Shown here: piece by piece, positions 16,926-54,960 of the stretch
Numbering within the stretch: position 1 is the stretch's first letter
Layout of the letters: every line of letters starts with the position of its first letter
NCBI GenBank assembly: GCA_902787825.1
Contig: CADAHS010000001.1
Span: 15,669-74,062, forward strand
DNA from: an uncultured Ruminococcus sp.
GTDB lineage: Bacteria; Bacillota; Clostridia; Oscillospirales; Ruminococcaceae
Direction of reading: 5' to 3'
DNA: 58,394 nt
The notes under the pieces: generated by a model
Databases searched by the model: none
What the model was told of the DNA's origin: nothing
Seen by the model: the letters and a program-made list of their open reading frames with translations, nothing else
Made by a program: the position numbers and the translations under genes

Positions 16926-19900
16926 ATGAACGATAATTCTTTTGCACAGATCTTTTCTCAGTTTGAGTATGACTTTACGTCTGCTCTTGCTAATGCAAAG
17001 ATCCTGAAGATCACATCTTCTGATAATAACCATGTCCTGAATGTGACTGCATCATTTGAAGAGCTTGTCAGATACGATGATGTGGAGCAGTTTTGTACTT
17101 ATATGAAGTCAAAGCTTGGTTCAAGACATTTTTCAATAGATTGCAGATTTACTCCGGATATGCTCACAGCTGAGTATTTTACGGAGATATTCCGCTTTTT
17201 CAAGGATAAGTTCCCGCTTGTGAACGGCTTCTTTAACGGTGCTGAAGCAAGCATTGACGGGGATATCGTAACGATAACCTTAAAACACGGCGGATATGAC
17301 CTGCTCAAAAGGAACGGCGCATCAAATGCCCTCTCTACGCTTGTAAATGAGATGTTTTCAAGAAAACTCAAATTTGAATATAACGGCGTTCTGGAAACTG
17401 ATGCTGAGGCTTATGAACGTGAACAGAAGGAGTTTCTTGCTAATCTGCCTGCTCCGGCTGCCCCGACAGCAAACAGCAGTCCATCATCTTCGTCTGTAAA
17501 GCCGGATAAGAATGAGGCTGAGATCGTTTTTCGCACCTGCGATCTTGATTTTACAAGACTGCACCTTCTTTGCGACAATGCTCTTGTACTGAAAGGCTCT
17601 CCGATTGACCCGCAGACCAAGGTCACACAGATGAGTGATATAGCTGCTGATTATACAGGCTCTATCACCGTTTGGGGCGATGTTTTCAACGTTGAAACAA
17701 AAGAGACCAAAAAGGGTATGTTAATAGCTACGGTTTTCATTACCGATTACACATCTTCGTTCTCATTGAAATTCGTCGGAGCATTAAAAGCCACAAGATA
17801 CAATCCGCTTACCAAAACAGTGCTTGAAGCGATCCTTGCGAAAATGAAAAAAGGCAGTACCGTTATCGTTTCCGGAAATGTCGAAGAGGACGATTTTGAC
17901 CATTCGGTGAATATCGTTGCTGAATCAGTGCTGCTTGTAAAGCGTGAAAAGAAAAAGGATAACTGCGAGAAAAAAAGAGTTGAGCTGCATCTGCATACTA
18001 ATATGTCGCAGCTTGATGCGATGACTCCTGCTGAACTGCTTGTCAACAGAGCACACGAATGGGGGCAGAAAGCTATTGCTATCACCGACCACGGTGTTGT
18101 GCAGGCTTTTACTGCTGCGGGAAATGCCTGTGCAAAGATAAGGCAGAAGGATAAGGATTTCAAGATTATTTATGGTGTCGAGGACTATGAGGTAAATAAT
18201 GATGAGCAGATCGTGACAGGCCTTGGAAACAGCGAGCTTGACGAAACTTTTATCGCTGTTGATCTTGGCGTAAGCGGTTCAAATACCCAGACCGATACAA
18301 TAACGTCTATTGCCGCTGTAAGGATCAACAGCTTTGAGATGACTGACAGATTTGAGATCAGCGTCACAAGCGACTGTGATGAGAAAACAGCGCTTGAACG
18401 CTTTGTGGAATTCTGCGGCAGCGACAGTATACTTGTAATGTCAAATGCACTTTTCAATAACGCTATGCTTTCACAGAGCCTTGTGAGAAATCAGCTCTCT
18501 TTTGAACTCACAACAGTAGACGTTATCAGAATGTGTCAGCATCTTGTAGATGACTTTGAAGCTACAAGCATTGAACAGGCAGCGCAGCACCTGCAAATGC
18601 AGCAGTTCAGCGGTGCCGAGCTTGTGGCTGAGGTCTATGTGCTTGTTTGCAAAAAGCTGATAGAGCAATATCCGCTTCTTGTTGTGAGAACTGATATGAT
18701 AAACAGCCTGCTTGCAAATGAGGACGAGAACGACATCAGAAACCGCAGACGCTATCACCAGATAATCCTTGTTCGGAACAATACCGGTCTCAAGAATCTG
18801 TACAAGCTTATTTCTTATTCCAATCTGAAGTACTACAAGAAACGTCCGAGAATTCCTAAATCTGAACTTGTGAAGCACAGAGAGGGACTTATCATCGGCT
18901 CTGCCTGTGAGCAGGGCGAGGTGTTCAGAGCGATGGCTGAAGGTGCTTCGTGGGAAAAGCTAAAACAGATAGCTGCATTTTATGATTATCTTGAAATACA
19001 GCCGTGCGGAAATAACGAGTTTATGCTCAGAAACGGTACAGTGCAGACGTATGAGCAGCTGCGTGATTACAACCGCACTATATGCAGACTTGGCGAGGAG
19101 CTTGGGATACCTGTATGTGCAACCTGTGACGTGCATTTTATGGATAAGTCTGATGCAAAGTTCAGAGCAATTATCCTTGCAGGACAGGGCTTTGCCGATG
19201 CAGACCAGCAGGCTCCGCTATATATGAGAACAACAGAAGAGATGCTTGAGGAGTTTTCGTATCTCGGAGAAGAAAAAGCATACGAGGTCGTCGTAACAAA
19301 TACAAACCGGGTCGCAGATATGGTCGATCCTGATCTTAAAGCGTTCCCTAACGGTACATATACTCCGTACATTGAAGGCGCAGTCTACGAGCTTCAGGTC
19401 ATCTGTTGGAGAAAATGTGTCAAGATATACGGCGATTGTGAACCTGATGAGATAAGCGTTCCGCCGGAAAAGGAACTTGACGATGAGCAGCTCAAGCATA
19501 TCGGGGACTACTTTAAAGATCATATCCCGCCGATAGTATTTGACAGACTTGAAAGAGAGCTTGATTCGATCATTGAGCATGGTTTTGCAGTGCTGTATAT
19601 GATCGCACAGAAACTTGTTGCATATTCAAATCAAAACGGGTATCAGGTTGGTTCTCGTGGTTCGGTTGGTTCGTCATTTGTTGCTTCAATGTCGGGTATC
19701 TCTGAGGTAAATCCTCTTGAGCCTCACTATGTCTGCCCAAAATGCTGCCACAGTGAGTTTATCACGGACGGTTCGGTCGGCTCAGGATTTGACCTTCCGC
19801 CGAAAAACTGTCCGGAATGCGGAACGGATATGCTTCGAGACGGCCACGATATACCGTTTGAAACATTCCTTGGATTCCATGGCGACAAAGCTCCGGATAT

Positions 19901-21326
19901 AGACCTCAACTTTTCCGGAGATGTACAGACAAAGGTACATAAATATACCGAGCAGCTGTTCGGTGAAGATCACGTTTTTAAAGCCGGAACTATCAGCGGT
20001 GTTCAGGAGAATACAGCCTACGGCTATGTTATGAAATATCTTGACGACAGAGGAAAAACTCTGCCAAAGGCGGAGATCGAACGCCTTAAACAAGGATGTG
20101 TCGGTGTAAAGAGGACAACCTCTCAGCACCCGGGCGGAATGGTAGTTATCCCAAGCGATTATGAGGTGTATGATTTCACTCCTGTTCAGCATCCGGCTGA
20201 AAAGGTCGATTCGGATATGGTCACTACCCACTTTGACTTCCGATCAATGCACGATACTATCCTTAAACTCGATGAGCTCGGACACGATGTACCGACAGAG
20301 TATAAGTATCTTGAAATGTTCAGCGGCAAGGATATCACAAAGATCCCGATGTCTGACCCTGATGTATATAAGCTGTTTACCTCGCCTGAGGTGCTCGGCG
20401 TTAAACCTGAGGATATCCGCTGCCCTACGGGAACGCTGGGTATTCCTGAAATGGGAACAAAGTTCGTTTGCCAGATGCTTATGGACGCAAAACCCAAGAA
20501 TTTTTCTGACCTTTTGCAGATCTCCGGTCTTTCTCATGGTACAGACGTGTGGCTTGGAAATGCAAAGGATCTTATCGCTGAAGGTATCTGTGATATCTCA
20601 AATGTTATCGGAACCCGTGACAGTATTATGACTTACCTTATCTACCATGGCGTAGATAAGAGTTTGTCATTCCAGATCATGGAGATAACTCGTAAAGGTA
20701 AAGCTCCCGAAAAGCTGACGGAAGATATGAAAAACGAGATGAGAGCGCATGATGTACCTCAGTGGTATATAGACAGCTGTCTGAAGATCAAATATATGTT
20801 CCCGAAGGCTCACGCTGCAGCGTATGTTACGGCTGCGATCAGACTGTGCTGGTTCAAGGTGCATGATCCGCTGACATTCTATGCGACAATGTTTACCGTC
20901 CGTGGAGAGGATTTTGACGCTGAGCTTGTTATGAGAGGAATGTATGTTATCAGAAACAAGCTCGAAGAGATAGAAAACAAGTCCAAAGACGAAAAGACGG
21001 GAAAGGACAACGGAGTTTACGATATCCTTATGCTTGCAAACGAGATGCTCTCAAGAGGCTATGAGTTTTTGCCTGTGGATATCAACAAGTCACATTCGTT
21101 TATTTATCGTATCGAGGACGGAAAGATAAGACTGCCTTTCTGTTCGCTCAACGGAGTCGGACTTAATGCGGCTAATCAGATCTATGAAAAAGCCAACGCC
21201 GGCGGATTTATCTCGGTCGAGGAGTTTCAGATACAAAGCGGAGTTCAGAAATCTGTCGTTGAAACTCTTGACAGGAACGGCGCATTCGGAGATCTTCCAA
21301 AACAGAACCAGCTTTCGCTGTTCTAA
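16926..21326 (+). CDS. polC: DNA polymerase III PolC-type alpha subunit, with degenerate proofreading domain
   Basis: Replicative polymerase of Firmicutes, 1466 residues. Domains in order: N-terminal domain, OB fold (about 235-340), PHP domain split by an exonuclease insert (about 350-700), then the polymerase core with the zinc-binding cysteines (VCPKCCHSEF, CPECGTDM) and the catalytic PDIDLNFSG segment, and a C-terminal QLSLF clamp-binding motif. PHP motifs look intact (LHLHTNMSQLDA, ITDHGV, YGVED, CDVH). The exonuclease insert does not: the expected DxE reads D446-L-G448, the HNxxFD motif reads S506-N-A-L-F-N511, and the ExoIII region reads Q560-F-S-G-A-E565 where His-x4-Asp is expected. 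The reading frame is open throughout. Polymerase assignment is firm; loss of proofreading is inferred. Confidence 0.97.
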   Translation: MNDNSFAQIFSQFEYDFTSALANAKILKITSSDNNHVLNVTASFEELVRYDDVEQFCTYMKSKLGSRHFSIDCRFTPDMLTAEYFTEIFRFFKDKFPLVNGFFNGAEASIDGDIVTITLKHGGYDLLKRNGASNALSTLVNEMFSRKLKFEYNGVLETDAEAYEREQKEFLANLPAPAAPTANSSPSSSSVKPDKNEAEIVFRTCDLDFTRLHLLCDNALVLKGSPIDPQTKVTQMSDIAADYTGSITVWGDVFNVETKETKKGMLIATVFITDYTSSFSLKFVGALKATRYNPLTKTVLEAILAKMKKGSTVIVSGNVEEDDFDHSVNIVAESVLLVKREKKKDNCEKKRVELHLHTNMSQLDAMTPAELLVNRAHEWGQKAIAITDHGVVQAFTAAGNACAKIRQKDKDFKIIYGVEDYEVNNDEQIVTGLGNSELDETFIAVDLGVSGSNTQTDTITSIAAVRINSFEMTDRFEISVTSDCDEKTALERFVEFCGSDSILVMSNALFNNAMLSQSLVRNQLSFELTTVDVIRMCQHLVDDFEATSIEQAAQHLQMQQFSGAELVAEVYVLVCKKLIEQYPLLVVRTDMINSLLANEDENDIRNRRRYHQIILVRNNTGLKNLYKLISYSNLKYYKKRPRIPKSELVKHREGLIIGSACEQGEVFRAMAEGASWEKLKQIAAFYDYLEIQPCGNNEFMLRNGTVQTYEQLRDYNRTICRLGEELGIPVCATCDVHFMDKSDAKFRAIILAGQGFADADQQAPLYMRTTEEMLEEFSYLGEEKAYEVVVTNTNRVADMVDPDLKAFPNGTYTPYIEGAVYELQVICWRKCVKIYGDCEPDEISVPPEKELDDEQLKHIGDYFKDHIPPIVFDRLERELDSIIEHGFAVLYMIAQKLVAYSNQNGYQVGSRGSVGSSFVASMSGISEVNPLEPHYVCPKCCHSEFITDGSVGSGFDLPPKNCPECGTDMLRDGHDIPFETFLGFHGDKAPDIDLNFSGDVQTKVHKYTEQLFGEDHVFKAGTISGVQENTAYGYVMKYLDDRGKTLPKAEIERLKQGCVGVKRTTSQHPGGMVVIPSDYEVYDFTPVQHPAEKVDSDMVTTHFDFRSMHDTILKLDELGHDVPTEYKYLEMFSGKDITKIPMSDPDVYKLFTSPEVLGVKPEDIRCPTGTLGIPEMGTKFVCQMLMDAKPKNFSDLLQISGLSHGTDVWLGNAKDLIAEGICDISNVIGTRDSIMTYLIYHGVDKSLSFQIMEITRKGKAPEKLTEDMKNEMRAHDVPQWYIDSCLKIKYMFPKAHAAAYVTAAIRLCWFKVHDPLTFYATMFTVRGEDFDAELVMRGMYVIRNKLEEIENKSKDEKTGKDNGVYDILMLANEMLSRGYEFLPVDINKSHSFIYRIEDGKIRLPFCSLNGVGLNAANQIYEKANAGGFISVEEFQIQSGVQKSVVETLDRNGAFGDLPKQNQLSLF

Positions 21327-31119: not shown

Positions 31120-33738
31120 TTGGTGTTAGCCAAGGATATAGATATGTCAAAGCTGTCTCCGATGATGCAGCAGTATTTTGAGGTCAAAAAAAAGTATAAG
31201 AACCATATCCTGTTTTACAGGCTCGGTGACTTTTACGAGATGTTTTTTGACGACGCCATAACTGCGTCAAGAGAACTGGAGCTCACCCTTACCGGAAGGG
31301 ACTGCGGGCTTGAAGAGCGTGCGCCTATGTGCGGTGTACCTCACCATGCCTGTGATATGTATATAAAAAAGCTCATAGACAAGGGCTATATGGTCGCTAT
31401 CTGTGAGCAGACCATGGATCCTGCAAAATGTAAAGGCATTGTTCCCAGAGAGGTCATCAGGGTGGTTACGCCGGGCACGCTTATCGAAAGCAGTATGCTT
31501 GACGAGACTTCAAACAATTACATCTGTTCGTTCTATACTAAGGATAAGGAAAGTGCACTGTGCTTTGCAGATATTTCTACGGGCGAGGTGCATTTGTTTG
31601 AGTTCTCGGGAAAACAGATGACCAACGAGGCGATCAATGAACTTTCAAGGTTTGAACCTTCGGAGGTGCTCATCAACGATGCCTTTTTATCAAATAAAGA
31701 ATTATCAAAATTTATCCGTGAAAAGCTTGATACCTCTGTTCAGCTGCTTGAGGAGATGGAGTTTTCGGTAAAGTATCATACCGAAGATGTGCTGAAGCAG
31801 TTCAGCGTTAACAGCCTCAGCGAACTGGGCATTGACGCTGAAAAAGTGAGTGCTAAAGCTGTTTGCGGACTTTTTGCGTATATACACCAGACGCAGAAGG
31901 CTCTTGTGGGAAGATTTTCAAAGATCATTCGTCACGATGTCGACCCTGTAATGACGATAGGCTTTACTGCAAGAAGAAATCTTGAGCTTACCGAAACGTT
32001 GAGAAATAAGGAGCGTAAAGGTTCGCTTTTGTGGGTGATCGACAGCACAAAGACTTCAATGGGAAAAAGAATGCTCAAAGCATGGCTGGAGCAGCCGCTT
32101 ATCAACCCGACGAAAATAATCAACAGACTTAATGCCGTGCAGCAGCTGACTGAAAACCCGGTAATGCTTGGAGAGATAAAGGAAGTCCTTAGCGGAGTAT
32201 ATGATCTTGAACGATTGATGACACGAGTTATGTACAAGACTGCGTCGCCAAGGGATCTCAAATCGCTTTCGCTCACAGCGCTGAAATTGCCTGCATTAAA
32301 AGATATGCTCAGAGAGTTTGATGCAAAACTGATAGCTGATTGTGAAAGCCGTATATCTACGCTTGAAGCTGTGTCAAATCTTATTGAGAATGCGATAGTC
32401 GATGAACCGCCTGTCAACGTCAAGGACGGTGGAGTTATCAAGGACGGATTCAACGAGCAGCTTGACGGACTGAGAAATATCCGTTCGGGCGGAAAGGATA
32501 TTATCGACGATATCTGTGAAAGAGAAAAAGAAAAGACGGGTATCAAGAACCTGAAGATCGGTTACAATCGTGTGTTCGGCTATTATATCGAAGTGACAAA
32601 GTCGTTCTATGATCTTGTTCCTCAGAACTATATCAGAAAGCAGACACTTGCAAACTGCGAAAGATTTATTACCGAGGAGCTTAAAGTTGCCGAGAATACT
32701 ATCCTCGGCGCAAGCGATAAGATAATCACTCTTGAGCAGGATATCTTTACCGAGATAAGAGATTTTGTTGCAACACAGCTGAGACTTGTACAGGAAACCG
32801 CTTCGGCAGTCGCACAGATCGATGTGCTTTGTTCATTTGCAAGTGTTGCTGTCAATAATAATTACACAAAGCCTGAGATCGCTATCGACGGCGTTATAGA
32901 CATCAAAAACGGCAGACACCCTGTTGTTGAGCTTATGCAAAAGGATGAGGTGTTTGTGCCGAACAATACATATCTTGACCTTACAAGTAACAGGATGGCT
33001 GTTATAACTGGTCCTAATATGTCAGGTAAATCTACATATATGCGTCAGGTCGCACTTATCACGCTGATGGCTCAGATAGGCTGCTTTGTGCCTGCGGATT
33101 ATGCAAAGATCTCTGTTGTGGATCAGATATTCACCCGTATCGGTGCTTCTGATGATCTCACCGCAGGACAGTCAACATTTATGGTCGAAATGGCAGAGGT
33201 AGCAGATATAGTCAAGCACGCCACCAAAAACAGCCTTGTTATACTTGATGAGGTCGGCAGAGGAACATCGACCTTTGACGGCATATCTATTGCAAGAGCA
33301 GTTTCGGAGTATATCTCAACATCTCGTTCACTTGGCTGTAAAACACTTTTTGCAACACATTACCACGAGCTTATCTGTCTTGAAAATGAGCTTGTCGGAG
33401 TCAGAAACTTTTCTGTGGCTGTCAAAAGACAGGGAGACACTATCAAGTTCCTCAGGAAGATCGTTCCGGGCGGAGTTGATGAGAGCTATGGCATAGAGGT
33501 CGCCAAGCTTGCCGGTCTGCCGGATAAGATCATCAGCCGTGCAAAAACTCTGCTGAATGAGCTTGAAGCGGAAAATCAAAAAGCAAGGCAGGCAGTTGAG
33601 AAGGCAGGATCCGAACAGGTTTCATTTGAAAAGATAAATGATTCTATCGTCATTGACAGGCTCAGGAAAACAAATATCGACGAAATGACCGATGAAGAAC
33701 TCAGAAGCTTTATAAAAGAGCTTACGACCTATCTTTAA
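31120..33738 (+). CDS. mutS: DNA mismatch repair protein MutS
   Basis: Recognises mismatches and small loops. The 872-residue length is standard. The N-terminal mismatch-binding domain carries the Phe-x-Glu motif in RLGDFYEMFFDDA (about residues 33-45). The ATPase has Walker A GPNMSGKSTYMRQ, DDLTAGQSTFMVEM, Walker B VILDEVGRGTSTFDG, and the FATHYHEL motif. A short C-terminal tail follows. The apparent start is TTG at 31120, with GGAG seven bases upstream; an ATG 24 bases later is possible. It is followed 25 bases later by mutL. Confidence 0.97.
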   Translation: MVLAKDIDMSKLSPMMQQYFEVKKKYKNHILFYRLGDFYEMFFDDAITASRELELTLTGRDCGLEERAPMCGVPHHACDMYIKKLIDKGYMVAICEQTMDPAKCKGIVPREVIRVVTPGTLIESSMLDETSNNYICSFYTKDKESALCFADISTGEVHLFEFSGKQMTNEAINELSRFEPSEVLINDAFLSNKELSKFIREKLDTSVQLLEEMEFSVKYHTEDVLKQFSVNSLSELGIDAEKVSAKAVCGLFAYIHQTQKALVGRFSKIIRHDVDPVMTIGFTARRNLELTETLRNKERKGSLLWVIDSTKTSMGKRMLKAWLEQPLINPTKIINRLNAVQQLTENPVMLGEIKEVLSGVYDLERLMTRVMYKTASPRDLKSLSLTALKLPALKDMLREFDAKLIADCESRISTLEAVSNLIENAIVDEPPVNVKDGGVIKDGFNEQLDGLRNIRSGGKDIIDDICEREKEKTGIKNLKIGYNRVFGYYIEVTKSFYDLVPQNYIRKQTLANCERFITEELKVAENTILGASDKIITLEQDIFTEIRDFVATQLRLVQETASAVAQIDVLCSFASVAVNNNYTKPEIAIDGVIDIKNGRHPVVELMQKDEVFVPNNTYLDLTSNRMAVITGPNMSGKSTYMRQVALITLMAQIGCFVPADYAKISVVDQIFTRIGASDDLTAGQSTFMVEMAEVADIVKHATKNSLVILDEVGRGTSTFDGISIARAVSEYISTSRSLGCKTLFATHYHELICLENELVGVRNFSVAVKRQGDTIKFLRKIVPGGVDESYGIEVAKLAGLPDKIISRAKTLLNELEAENQKARQAVEKAGSEQVSFEKINDSIVIDRLRKTNIDEMTDEELRSFIKELTTYL

Positions 33739-33763: not shown

Positions 33764-35761
33764 ATGTCAGAGATAAAACTGCTCAGCAAGGAGGTCTCCG
33801 AGCTTATAGCTGCGGGAGAGGTCATAGACAGACCCGCATCTGTTGCAAAGGAACTGCTTGAAAATGCTGTCGATGCAGGAGCAAACGTAATAACTATTGA
33901 GATCAAAAACGGCGGAAGAACATATATGCGTGTCACCGATAACGGCAAGGGCATTTCAATGCAGGACCTTCCGACAGCGTTTTTGCGCCACGCAACAAGT
34001 AAGATCGCTGACAAAAACGATCTTGAAAAAATTCTTACGCTCGGGTTCAGAGGTGAAGCGCTTGCCTCTGTGTGTGCCGTTTCGAGAGTGAGCGTTCTGA
34101 CCAAGCGTGTCAGCGACGATTACGGAACTCATTATGAGATAGAGGGCGGAGAAGAAAAAGTTTGCGAGCAAAGCGGCTGCCCCGATGGTACGACTTTTGT
34201 GATCAAGGATATTTTTTATAACGTGCCTGCAAGACTGAAATTTCTCCGCAAGGATTCCACTGAGGGAAATTATGTGGCAGAAATGGTAACAAAGCTTGCG
34301 CTTTCTCACCCGGAGATCTCTTTCAAGTTTATAAGAGATAATAAAGTAGAGCTGCTATCGGCGGGCGACGGAAAAGTATACTCAGCGATCTATTCAGTAT
34401 TTGGCAGAGAGTTTGCCGCTTCGCTTATCCCGGTCAATTACGAGTGGAAGGGTATACATATTACAGGTTATACCGTTAAGCCGCTTGAATCCAAGCCGAA
34501 CAGAAAGTTCCAGAATTTCTTTGTGAACCACCGCTTTATAAAATCGGTCGCCTGCTCATGCGCACTTGAGGATGCATACCGCAATCAGATAATGGTCGGT
34601 AAATTTCCTGCGTGCGTGCTTTATATTGATATAGCGCCCGATACGGTAGATGTAAATGTCCACCCGACCAAGATCCAGGTCCGTTTTTCAAATGAAGGGC
34701 TAATGCACGAGGCAGTATACTTTGCGATAAAGGATTCGCTGCTCAAAAACGATAAGCCAAGGGAAATGGTGCTTGAAACCAGACGTAATTTTACACAACA
34801 GCAGCTTTATGGCGTGCAGCCGGACAGCGGTGTGCAGATGAAATTTGCTTGTGCTGATGAAAAGCCCGTTCAGCCAAAGCCGCAGCCTCAACCGACTGCT
34901 GCATATGTTCCGCCTCCGCAGGAGAGCTTTGATACTACCCCTGCGGCAGAGAAAGCTCAGCCGACAGTAAAATCAGTAGTCGAGTCTGTGAGCAATGCCG
35001 TAGCTCAGAAGGAGCCCGAGCCAGCTAAACCACAAAACAGAGTTACGGTGGAGCAATTCAATAAATTTGTCAGTGAGATCCCGCTTCCCGAGGAGGATAA
35101 CGGCGGTTCGTTCAAGTATATCCAGAAACAAAGCTTTGAAAAAGTACCTCAGCAGGCTGCTCCGGTCATTGTTGAGGAACAGGAGCAAAAGCCTAAGCCT
35201 GTTGTTATTGGTGAACTGTTCAGAACGTTTGTTGTTGCTCAGTGCGGCGATGATATGATACTTATGGACAAGCACGCTGCACACGAGAGATATATATTTG
35301 AAAAAATAAAGGACGAAAAGAATACGCTTGACCCTCAGATGCTTTTGGAGCCTGTTATGGTCGTGCTTGCGTATGACGAGTATGATGCGCTGGCACAAAA
35401 CGTTGACAAGATCAGAACTCTTGGATTCGAGATAGAGCCTGATGTCGCTCCGACTGTTGCTGTGAAAGGAGTTCCGATAATTCTTGGAGATCAGAACCCG
35501 ACCGAAGTCGTGAGTGAACTTGCGAGAAACTTTATTGCAAACAAGCTTGATCCGCAGGTCGAGATATTTGATGACCTTTATCATTCGCTTGCCTGCAAAG
35601 CTGCGATAAAAGCTCACGACAAATCAAGCCTTGTAGAGCTTCAGGCATTGCTCGAAGCAGTATATGACAACGATGCCATCAGATATTGTCCCCATGGCAG
35701 ACCCGTGCTTATAAAGCTCTCAAAGAGAGATATCGAAAAACAGTTCAAAAGGATCGTATGA
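33764..35761 (+). CDS. mutL: DNA mismatch repair endonuclease MutL
   Basis: GHKL ATPase that nicks the daughter strand after MutS activation. The 665-residue protein has the N-terminal ATPase motifs (ELLENAVDAGA, RVTDNGKGI, LGFRGEALASV, GTTFVIKDIFYNVPARLKFL). A long Pro/Gln-rich linker follows (about residues 340-470), then the C-terminal domain with the metal-dependent endonuclease motif MDKHAAHERYIFE (canonical DQHAxxE, Gln replaced by Lys). The CPHGRP motif lies near the end. The endonuclease motif fits a non-methyl-directed system without MutH. Confidence 0.96.
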   Translation: MSEIKLLSKEVSELIAAGEVIDRPASVAKELLENAVDAGANVITIEIKNGGRTYMRVTDNGKGISMQDLPTAFLRHATSKIADKNDLEKILTLGFRGEALASVCAVSRVSVLTKRVSDDYGTHYEIEGGEEKVCEQSGCPDGTTFVIKDIFYNVPARLKFLRKDSTEGNYVAEMVTKLALSHPEISFKFIRDNKVELLSAGDGKVYSAIYSVFGREFAASLIPVNYEWKGIHITGYTVKPLESKPNRKFQNFFVNHRFIKSVACSCALEDAYRNQIMVGKFPACVLYIDIAPDTVDVNVHPTKIQVRFSNEGLMHEAVYFAIKDSLLKNDKPREMVLETRRNFTQQQLYGVQPDSGVQMKFACADEKPVQPKPQPQPTAAYVPPPQESFDTTPAAEKAQPTVKSVVESVSNAVAQKEPEPAKPQNRVTVEQFNKFVSEIPLPEEDNGGSFKYIQKQSFEKVPQQAAPVIVEEQEQKPKPVVIGELFRTFVVAQCGDDMILMDKHAAHERYIFEKIKDEKNTLDPQMLLEPVMVVLAYDEYDALAQNVDKIRTLGFEIEPDVAPTVAVKGVPIILGDQNPTEVVSELARNFIANKLDPQVEIFDDLYHSLACKAAIKAHDKSSLVELQALLEAVYDNDAIRYCPHGRPVLIKLSKRDIEKQFKRIV

Positions 35762-46237: not shown

Positions 46238-48232
<1,995 letters not shown>

Positions 48233-52566: not shown

Positions 52567-54960
52567 TCACTTCAGCTCCACAACTGTAACTCCGTCCTCA
52601 CCTTCACCATAAAGACCTTTCCTTGATGACTTAACACTGGGGTGGTGCTTGAGATGCGATCTTATTGCATTTTTGAGAACCCCGGTCCCTTTGCCGTGAA
52701 TGATCGTAACTATACCGACACCTGACATCACTGCATCATCAATAAAGCTGTCAACGGCGTATATACCGTCGTCAGCAGCATATCCTCTTATATCCAGTTC
52801 AGTGGATATTTTTCTGGTCAATCTGCTTTCAACGCCCTTTGTAGAAACTGCACCCTGCTTGTTCTTGTTCTTGACCTTGACTGGCTGCTGCTTTTCAACA
52901 AGCCTCAGCTTGCTCACATCGACCTTGGTCTTCATTACTCCTATCTGAACAAAACAGTTTCCCTTAGAATCAGGCGGTGTGATAACTATACCGTTTCTCT
53001 TGGTATCCCACACAAGCACTCTGTCACCTTTGACAAGCGCCCTTGGCAGCACATATCCATCGTCGTTTTCTTCAATGACCGGGTTTGCTTCAAGATATAG
53101 CTTGTTCATTGTAGACTTCTGCTTGTGCCGAGCGTCGATAGCTTTTTGCGTAAAGCCTTCCTTTTCTTTTTCCTTGCGCAGAGAATCAAGTTCATCAACA
53201 AGCTGCTGTGATTCACGCTGCACTCGTCTGACGATCTCCTGAGCTTCAAGTCTTGCACGCTCGAGTATGTCCTCTCTGTCACGGGCAAGCTGCTGCTTGT
53301 CATTTTCAAGTTTGTTTTTCAGCTCGTCAGCTTCACGCTTGTAAATCTGAGCAAGTTCGTTGTTCTTTTCAAGCTCTGCCTTTGTGCGTTCCAGGTCATC
53401 AAGAATATTTTCAAATTTTTTGTTTTCCGATGAAATAAGCGAGCTTGCGTGCTTGATGATATCCTCGTCGATCCCAAGGCTGCGGGAGATCGCAAATGCG
53501 TTGGATTTGCCGGGGAACCCGATCACAAGCTTGTATGTCGGCTTGAGCGTTTGCGGGTCGAACTGGCAGCTTGCATTCTGGACGCCATCAGTTTCTATTG
53601 CGTACATTTTAATTTCCTGATAATGAGTCGTTGTTATAAGTGTAGCTCTGAAAGTGTGTATCCTATCTATTATTGAAACAGCAAGTGCTGCACCCTCAAC
53701 AGGGTCAGTTCCCGAACCAAGCTCATCCAGAAGTACAAGGCTTTCGCTGTCTGCCTCGTCAAGGATCGTCTTTATCGTGCTTATATGAGAAGAGAATGTC
53801 GAAAGGTCATTTTCAATCGACTGCTGATCTCCGATGTCAACCAGAACTTTTTTATAAACACAGATCCTGCTGCCGTCTGATGCAGGAATCATTAGTCCAC
53901 ACATCGTCATCAGCGTCAGCAGACCTACCGTTTTCAGGACGACAGTTTTACCGCCTGTGTTCGGACCTGTAATGACAAGTACACTGTTCTCTCCGCCAAT
54001 CTCCAGATCTATTGGCACGACCTTTTTTTCATCAATAAGCGGGTGCCTTGCCTTTTTGAGGATTATAACTCCGTCATCGCCGATCTCCGGCTCCATAGCT
54101 TTCATTTTTGCGCCAAGGTTTGCCTTTGCAAAATAAAGACAAAGCTCGCACGAAGCATTGTAGCTTGAAATGAGCTTTTCTTTAAGCTGACCGCATTCAG
54201 CGGAGAAGCTGCTGATGATACGGTGTATCTCATCCTGCTCCTGTGCAGCAAGGATCCGTATGTCGTTATTTGCCTCAACAACACTCATCGGCTCAATGAA
54301 AAGGGTAGATCCCGATGCGGATATATCGTGTACAAGTCCGCTGACATTAGATTTGAACTCACGCTTGACCGGGATAACGAATCTTCCGTCACGGATCGTA
54401 ACGATCGAATCCTGCATATATTTTTTACCCTCGCTTGACTTTATCATCTTGTCAAGCGATTCTCTTATAGAAAGCTGTGAGCGTGAGATCCTGCGGCGGA
54501 TACTCCTCAGCTCCGGGCTTGCATCATCTGACAGACTGTTCTCGTCGATTATAGCTTCATTCAGCCGCCTTAAAAGTGAGTTCTCCGGGAACAGACTCTC
54601 AAAAAGATAGTTCAGTTTTGTTTGTTTGTCCTCCAACTGATCGAACCATTTTGTCAAAGCATCAGTCTGCATCAGAACACGGCGGATCTCAAGCAGTTCC
54701 TTTATTGAGAGCACGCCGCCCTGCTCAGCTCTCATAGCTATGGCAGAAATGTCGTTTACCTTGTAAAACGAAGGCGTGCCATACCTTACGCTCAGTTCAA
54801 AAGCCTGTGATGTCTTTGACATTTCTTCTTTGACCGTGTAAAGATCGCTTTGCGGAGTTATCCTGTTAGCCATCTGCTTGGCTTTTGGGATAACACATTC
54901 CATCGCAAGCATTTCAAGTATTTTATGTAATTCAAGTGGTTTGCAGTTTATCATTTCCAT
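52567..54960 (-). CDS. mutS2: Endonuclease MutS2 / ribosome rescue factor
   Basis: MutS-like ATPase lacking the mismatch-recognition domain; homologs act on collided ribosomes (RqcU) and have been linked to suppression of recombination. 797 residues. Walker A is GPNTGGKTVVLKT near residue 333, Walker B is LVLLDELGSGTDPVEGA, a coiled coil spans about 510-620, and the C-terminal Smr domain carries LDIRGY and HGKGTGVLKNAIR. The LDLR motif of relatives reads LDIR here. AGGTGA lies 7 bases before the ATG. It is 11 bases downstream of recO. Confidence 0.95.
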   Translation of the reverse strand: MEMINCKPLELHKILEMLAMECVIPKAKQMANRITPQSDLYTVKEEMSKTSQAFELSVRYGTPSFYKVNDISAIAMRAEQGGVLSIKELLEIRRVLMQTDALTKWFDQLEDKQTKLNYLFESLFPENSLLRRLNEAIIDENSLSDDASPELRSIRRRISRSQLSIRESLDKMIKSSEGKKYMQDSIVTIRDGRFVIPVKREFKSNVSGLVHDISASGSTLFIEPMSVVEANNDIRILAAQEQDEIHRIISSFSAECGQLKEKLISSYNASCELCLYFAKANLGAKMKAMEPEIGDDGVIILKKARHPLIDEKKVVPIDLEIGGENSVLVITGPNTGGKTVVLKTVGLLTLMTMCGLMIPASDGSRICVYKKVLVDIGDQQSIENDLSTFSSHISTIKTILDEADSESLVLLDELGSGTDPVEGAALAVSIIDRIHTFRATLITTTHYQEIKMYAIETDGVQNASCQFDPQTLKPTYKLVIGFPGKSNAFAISRSLGIDEDIIKHASSLISSENKKFENILDDLERTKAELEKNNELAQIYKREADELKNKLENDKQQLARDREDILERARLEAQEIVRRVQRESQQLVDELDSLRKEKEKEGFTQKAIDARHKQKSTMNKLYLEANPVIEENDDGYVLPRALVKGDRVLVWDTKRNGIVITPPDSKGNCFVQIGVMKTKVDVSKLRLVEKQQPVKVKNKNKQGAVSTKGVESRLTRKISTELDIRGYAADDGIYAVDSFIDDAVMSGVGIVTIIHGKGTGVLKNAIRSHLKHHPSVKSSRKGLYGEGEDGVTVVELK

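Follow-up and report, generated by a model that had tools for sequence, protein, structure and literature searches.

The polC gene and its domains

A gene for a DNA polymerase III of the PolC type lies in the window, by which the whole analysed stretch of 58,394 nucleotides is meant. The genes and features listed below are all found on the forward strand.

16926..21326, + strand: polC, DNA polymerase III PolC-type, 1466 amino acids (open reading frame and whole-protein profile scores)
17976..18206, + strand: PHP domain, N-terminal half, residues about 351-427, with ligands H355, H357, D364, H389 and E419 (Pfam, alignment)
18231..18725, + strand: DnaQ-like (DEDDh) insert, catalytically degenerate as aligned, residues about 436-600 (alignment, profile comparison)
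18261..18269, + strand: ExoI position, D446-L-G448 in place of D-x-E (alignment)
18366..18374, + strand: junction of a deletion of 21-27 residues, near residue 483 (alignment of seven degenerate species)
18441..18458, + strand: ExoII position, S506 and N511 in place of His and Asp (alignment)
18603..18620, + strand: ExoIII position, Q560...G563-A-E565 in place of H-R-x-x-D-D-A (alignment)
18732..19220, + strand: PHP domain, C-terminal half, residues about 603-765, with ligands H611, C661, D735 and H737 (alignment)
31120..33738, + strand: mutS
33764..35761, + strand: mutL

In profile searches the protein scored 1316.6 bits against TIGR01405 (cut-off 1043.45) and 1475.4 bits against NF001688 (cut-off 873). 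It belongs to the PolC type by these scores above the curated cut-offs and by its Pfam domains, which follow the order NTD-OB-PHP-Pol-HhH, with the NTD and OB models in the right order at scores below their own cut-offs. The PHP domain is split over residues 353-686, and the Pol core, the finger domain and the helix-hairpin-helix region were also matched. The palm aspartates D991, D993 and D1116 are all in place in the alignment, and the protein ends in QNQLSLF (residues 1460-1466), which we take to be a clamp-type motif. The mutS and mutL genes, mentioned in an earlier note on this DNA, are indeed present. The same 58-kb window also carries an NAD-dependent DNA ligase gene and a MutS2-type gene with a Smr domain, at 46238-48232 and 52567-54960.

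Loss of the catalytic residues in the DnaQ-like insert

At the six signature columns of the DEDDh site, D E H D H D is read in 95 of the 114 aligned PolC frames, and the window protein has D G S N gap G at these positions. Five of the six residues are gone, the first Asp (D446) alone remains, and the catalytic set of an active DEDDh enzyme (DxE, Asp, His-x4-Asp) is absent from the insert. The earlier note had claimed that the domain keeps its pattern and loses its catalytic residues, which is borne out by these five changed columns. Its numbering of D446, G448, S506, N511 and Q560 is right, with E565 lying five residues past Q560, but Q560 and E565 are not the positions of the ExoIII His and Asp. 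The family alignment puts the Asp column at G563 and the His column in a gap, while E565 aligns with the Glu after "DDA" and not with the catalytic Asp. The note's description of a degenerate domain was correct as to the residue losses and overlooked a deletion of 21-27 residues, counted against the intact L008. This deletion is common to all seven degenerate species, lies directly after the third strand (near residue 483, window position 18372) and takes out the conserved "LTGI..DMV" segment. The six other members of the clade read SKQC-E, HDYSAG, HDYAAG, SSDIGG, SSDMKG and DDYAAK at the signature columns. As judged from these alignments, the DEDDh site of the PolC insert is lost in the clade.

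Descent of the insert from the DEDDh family is indicated by an hhalign probability of 99.9% between degenerate and intact PolC inserts, and the region can still be aligned to the PolC chain 9qpc. The stretch between the two PHP halves measures 163-168 residues in the clade versus 3-23 in seven exo-less rows, and the window protein is therefore not an exo-less PolC. The Pfam exonuclease model PF00929 is absent from the matches of the window PolC at E<=0.001 and up to E<=1, and it recovers none of the seven clade inserts at E<=0.001.

The insert might still edit through a rearranged active site, for which the retention of D446 in the window species speaks, together with an Asp in the same column of L007. 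Against it, the six positions vary among the clade members, no new acidic set is shared at them, and identity at the invariant non-hydrophobic columns falls to only 17%. Such a site is very improbable. A displacement of the catalytic motif to another part of the insert was considered as well and rejected, with few invariant polar columns left. The earlier note would have given up its reading for an intact DxE, Asp and His-Asp at another place of the domain; at the six columns the clade has no new acidic set in common.

One clade and one origin

The degenerate PolCs, L001-L007, come from the window genome G000 and from six relatives, G009, G016, G006, G008, G012 and G020, whose PolCs share 72-85% identity with that of the window. 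Among named records, RUG13226 ("uncultured Ruminococcus sp.") comes nearest at 84%, followed by RUG060 ("uncultured Clostridiales bacterium") at 75%, both presumably of rumen origin from their RUG prefix. The records of the relatives are labelled mostly Oscillospiraceae, Ruminococcus or Clostridia. The two further sequences L031 and L032 are the same as L002 and L003 (L031 was compared) and do not count as independent evidence.

A tree of 109 PolC rows was built from residues 603-1466 only, so that the trait's own columns stood outside it; it held 95 intact rows (L047 with one unreadable position), 7 degenerate rows and 7 rows without insert. Five of the 114 rows were left out, namely the duplicates L031 and L032, L027 and L077, which are cut at the insert, and L029 with its short core. 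The seven degenerate rows form one side of a single branch with an SH-aLRT support of 100 and adjoin 18 intact species of the same genus. A mixture-model tree of 51 chosen rows recovered the same degenerate group and placed the insert-less L141 (G125) as sister to the genus. Both trees were quick searches, with long-row warnings for L094 in both and for L152 in the 51-row tree. The loss of the signature is clade-wide, a point that the earlier note had proposed to examine by aligning relatives: all seven species of one clade lack the DEDDh set and the sisters are intact. These trees place the loss of the DEDDh site and of the segment at a single origin, in an ancestor shared by seven or more species of one genus of Ruminococcaceae/Oscillospiraceae-type Clostridia.

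With its 85 contigs, the draft genome of the window species leaves room for an error of assembly or reading frame as the source of the degenerate stretch. Such an artefact is very unlikely, hardly worth entertaining, because seven different species have a continuous frame through the insert, and they share one common deletion.

Selection on the insert and probable retention of its fold

The insert has evolved fast in the clade, with a median dN of 0.674 (21 pairs), versus 0.224 when 16 intact species of the genus were compared in 120 pairs. The Pol core gives a median dN of 0.085 in degenerate versus 0.121 in intact species, and a mean p-distance of 0.123 versus 0.155. When 20-residue windows from 200 to 859 were set against 13 intact species, the excess relative to Pol was 1.5-5.5-fold at 420-599 and strongest at 540-559, around ExoIII; the windows at 200-419 and 600-839 gave 0.4-1.5-fold. 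The linker before the Pol core (residues 840-859, window 19443-19502) is also faster in the degenerate clade, by 3.0-fold relative to Pol.

The losses fall unevenly on the domain. The seven intact rows that were compared agree in being hydrophobic at 50 columns, and 91% of the residues in the degenerate clade are hydrophobic at these columns, while at 25 invariant non-hydrophobic columns the identity is kept in the degenerate rows at the low rate given above. For the closest pair, L005/L006, the dN/dS of the insert is 0.18 (bootstrap 0.09-0.32) versus 0.014 for Pol; four further pairs gave 0.13-0.31 for the insert, and Pol ranged over 0.014-0.038 in the pairs tried. These ratios are rough: dS reaches about 1 or higher in every degenerate pair used, and bootstrap draws with saturated dS, up to 286 of 1000 in the case of the insert, were discarded. 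Neutral drift of the whole insert was rejected on the dN/dS of 0.13-0.31 in the five pairs and on the retained hydrophobic core. The open frame through the insert is in itself no evidence of constraint, since Pol downstream forces the frame open. The view of the earlier note that the domain is kept for structural reasons agrees with these signs of structural constraint, the hydrophobic core among them. The insert is thus best described as a pseudo-exonuclease that is probably kept for its fold. The fold itself, which would be RNase H-like and agrees with the kept core hydrophobicity, is inferred, as are the absence of exonuclease activity in the insert and a scaffold role.

Other exonucleases and mismatch repair

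If the insert no longer edits, the editing could be supplied from elsewhere in the cell. In G000 (90.25% complete) PF00929 had no match at E<=0.001, and at E<=10 it met only the organism's own PolC insert (E 0.83 and 2.6); in G009, the closest relative and likewise a draft of about 90% completeness, no match was found at E<=10. Both drafts, at about 90%, may lack a gene that the organism has. A PF00929 match at E<=0.001 is present in 264 of the 297 genomes of the family sample. Among the exceptions, G125 (99% complete) and G173 (93%) have a PolC without insert and no PF00929 match at E<=0.001, which means that some genomes of the family have no recognisable RNase_T protein. Two other candidates were tried and dropped. 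A Pol I exonuclease (PF01612) as helper found nothing over the cut-off in G000, where the best E was 0.32, and for a second PolC or DnaE as replacement, the matches to P0001 at E<=0.001 in G000 were PolC and one DnaE only.

Proofreading could be exerted in trans by a separate DEDDh exonuclease of about 178 amino acids, in which case the built-in domain would have become redundant and decayed. A small DEDDh family with intact D-E, HN-FD and HH...D motifs does exist (the motifs were read in copies other than the second one of G012), and its gene occurs in five of the seven degenerate species, with two copies in two of them, versus three of 20 intact species (Fisher p 0.011, weak and uncorrected for kinship). 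In this count the intact species G017 was entered by the PF00929 match in its PolC fragment rather than by the six columns, and G004 and G010, of the 29 genus genomes, stand outside it for want of a listed PolC, although G004 carries the small DEDDh gene. The gene was not found in the drafts G000 and G009, the window species and its sister. Its contexts are unrelated, a PTS/LacI region in G012 and G008 and a sortase region in G006 and G016; copies in the degenerate G020 and the intact G005 and G026 are 90-94% identical, which suggests lateral spread, and fragments occur in G011, G019 and G023. A trans proofreader would be expected to need a C-terminal tail, after the example of E. coli epsilon. 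The G012 protein has no long C-terminal tail past the domain and reaches no NCBIfam cut-off. A trans proofreader of this kind is considered unlikely. For the separate DnaQ-like subunit that the earlier note offered as an alternative, five of the seven species have a possible candidate, and none was found in the G000 and G009 drafts. The small DEDDh protein may help in its host species, and it does not explain the window species.

The loci of this small gene (L122, L123, L124, L125, L126, L127, L128, L131, L132 and L133) are spread over nine of the 29 genus genomes in changing places, and the gene is apparently mobile.

A different explanation is that PolC proofreading is truly reduced and fidelity comes from base selection and MutS/MutL, with DnaE1 perhaps doing much of the high-fidelity synthesis. 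The position of mutS and mutL, about 10-14 kb downstream of polC, fits this explanation, as do the insert-less relatives at several places of the tree, two of which (G125 and G173, at least 90% complete) have no PF00929 match at E<=0.001. The Pol core has evolved no faster in the clade than in the intact sisters by the dN medians given above, a pace that does not suggest a mutator, weak as this evidence is, and the PHP ligands of the clade PolCs remain complete. A true reduction of proofreading, with the reliance on mismatch repair that the earlier note had named as an alternative, is possible and rated as distinctly unlikely.

The PHP site and DnaE1

The nine PHP ligands of the window PolC are complete (H355, H357, D364, H389, E419, H611, C661, D735 and H737, or HHDHEHCDH), and the same HHDHEHCDH is found in all seven clade PolCs and in the DnaE1 of all seven clade genomes. 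An active PHP site is scored by the nine ligands HHDHEH[C/H]DH in PMC12926913, and the window PolC has each of them. The proofreader of M. tuberculosis DnaE1 is a PHP-exonuclease, while the Geobacillus PolC, with one of the nine PHP ligands mutated, shows no exonuclease activity, as described in PMC5636811. The D735 column is Asn in the aligned chains 3f2b and 9qpc. The title claim of the earlier note, that the replicase probably lacks its own proofreading site, is not sustained, since the PHP domain keeps all nine metal ligands and DnaE1 does likewise; among its three alternatives, editing at another site fits best, with the PHP site as that site.

Completeness of the ligands is not peculiar to the clade. 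It extends to 110 of the 114 PolC rows, the other four being cut or having one unreadable position, with no substitutions, and to all 13 readable PolCs without insert. Because no readable PolC lacks any of the nine, the ligands are ancestral and do not point to compensation. The complete set would permit PHP proofreading, without proving a shift to PHP.

Insert-less PolCs and the sampling of the family

PolCs without insert are L141 (G125), L143, L144, L146, L147, L152, L069, L073, L076, L080, L094, L108 and L114. On the 51-row tree, which holds 12 of these 13, the label "no insert" changes eight times, and at least five of the changes are forced by starred branches. Trees alone cannot tell loss from gain, and the insert-less states are read here as losses. 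The degenerate clade is a plausible intermediate between intact and exo-less PolC, because insert-less relatives stand at at least five places of the tree.

Further degenerate inserts were sought in 31 genomes, made up of 19 of the 32 genomes other than G000 without a PF00929 match and of 12 genomes with a weak match, with G131 left out. None was found in these 31; six PolCs that could be read at the site were without insert, two (L140 and L148) had part of an intact-looking insert, and in the rest the PolC was truncated, masked (a piece of G099 went unscored) or absent. The search covers one order plus 58 loci, and it would overlook a degenerate insert wherever the genome also has a separate DnaQ gene with a strong match.

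In three genomes of 94-98% completeness, G034, G119 and G210 (DnaE1 loci L166, L165 and L167), TIGR01405 gave no match over its cut-off and PF00929 none at E<=0.001. All that was found in them is a DnaE with complete PHP ligands; two of the three measure 0.7-0.8 Mb, and they may be DnaE1-only, DnaQ-free Clostridia.

A proposed mechanism of proofreading

The proposed mechanism starts from the loss of the DEDDh proofreading site of PolC, along with the 21-27 residue segment, in the ancestor of the clade. Two constraints would preserve the insert as a folded shell without catalysis, namely its position within the PHP domain and some role in binding or as a scaffold. Editing of the primer 3' end would most likely fall to the zinc-dependent PHP site in PolC, with the DnaE1 PHP site as a possible helper. 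Such an arrangement would be the mirror image of the Geobacillus-type PolC, in which the DnaQ domain proofreads and the PHP site is incomplete. The reading of a pseudo-exonuclease insert with the PHP site of PolC as the likely proofreader is given a probability of about two in three, and a PHP exonuclease activity of the clade PolC is predicted from its ligands. A stronger version, in which PolC proofreads by PHP only and the former DnaQ domain has a selected role of its own, such as steering the primer towards the zinc site or anchoring a partner, is put forward tentatively, at somewhat less than even chances.

If this stronger version is true, the clade, its intact sisters and the exo-less relatives would represent a stepwise return of proofreading from the magnesium DEDDh site to the zinc PHP site. 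The clade also makes it testable whether the PHP domain of clostridial PolC, with ligands so conserved, is a working proofreader. A practical consequence concerns surveys, in that a PolC drug-target survey chose its sequences by the PF00929 insert, according to PMC11963600. Since PF00929 finds none of the seven inserts at E<=0.001, a PolC survey based on it would miss the degenerate PolCs, and such a selection would drop the exo-less PolCs too. The Oscillospiraceae are said to be among the groups spared by a PolC-targeting antibiotic.

Comparison with known systems

The Geobacillus PolC (3f2b) and the full-length PolC-type chain 9qpc have the same domain order and Pol core as the window protein (phmmer 1032 and 988 bits), and 9qpc shares the DnaQ-like insert with it. 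The 9qpc chain has Ala at both ExoI positions and is probably an exonuclease-deficient construct. Geobacillus-type PolCs are considered to proofread with a catalytic insert, according to PMC3919608, whereas the window insert is degenerate; conversely, both chains have Asn at D735, whereas the nine PHP ligands of the window PolC are complete. The exo-less PolCs treated in the same source, which there make up 6% of PolCs and occur in all but one case in Clostridia and Negativicutes, share with the clade the missing DEDDh site and the complete PHP ligands. Their insert is gone, whereas about 165 insert residues remain in the clade PolC, hydrophobic core included.

A DnaQ-like domain kept without its catalytic residues is known, from PMC12926913, in the actinobacterial PolA2/APEX and in Firmicutes Pol I with an inactive 3'-5' exonuclease domain. 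Those enzymes belong to the A-family with a DEDDy domain, whereas the clade PolC is a C-family replicase. M. tuberculosis DnaE1, according to PMC5636811, has a nine-ligand PHP site like the window PolC but is of the DnaE type, with no DnaQ insert in its PHP domain. Searches of the open-licence PMC literature listed no paper that was recognised as describing a PolC which keeps its DnaQ domain in an inactivated state. The inactivated site in Pol III alpha subunits is PHP and not DnaQ by the statement of a 2026 survey. In conclusion, the clade, as read from its aligned sequences, is a counterexample to that statement in seven species.
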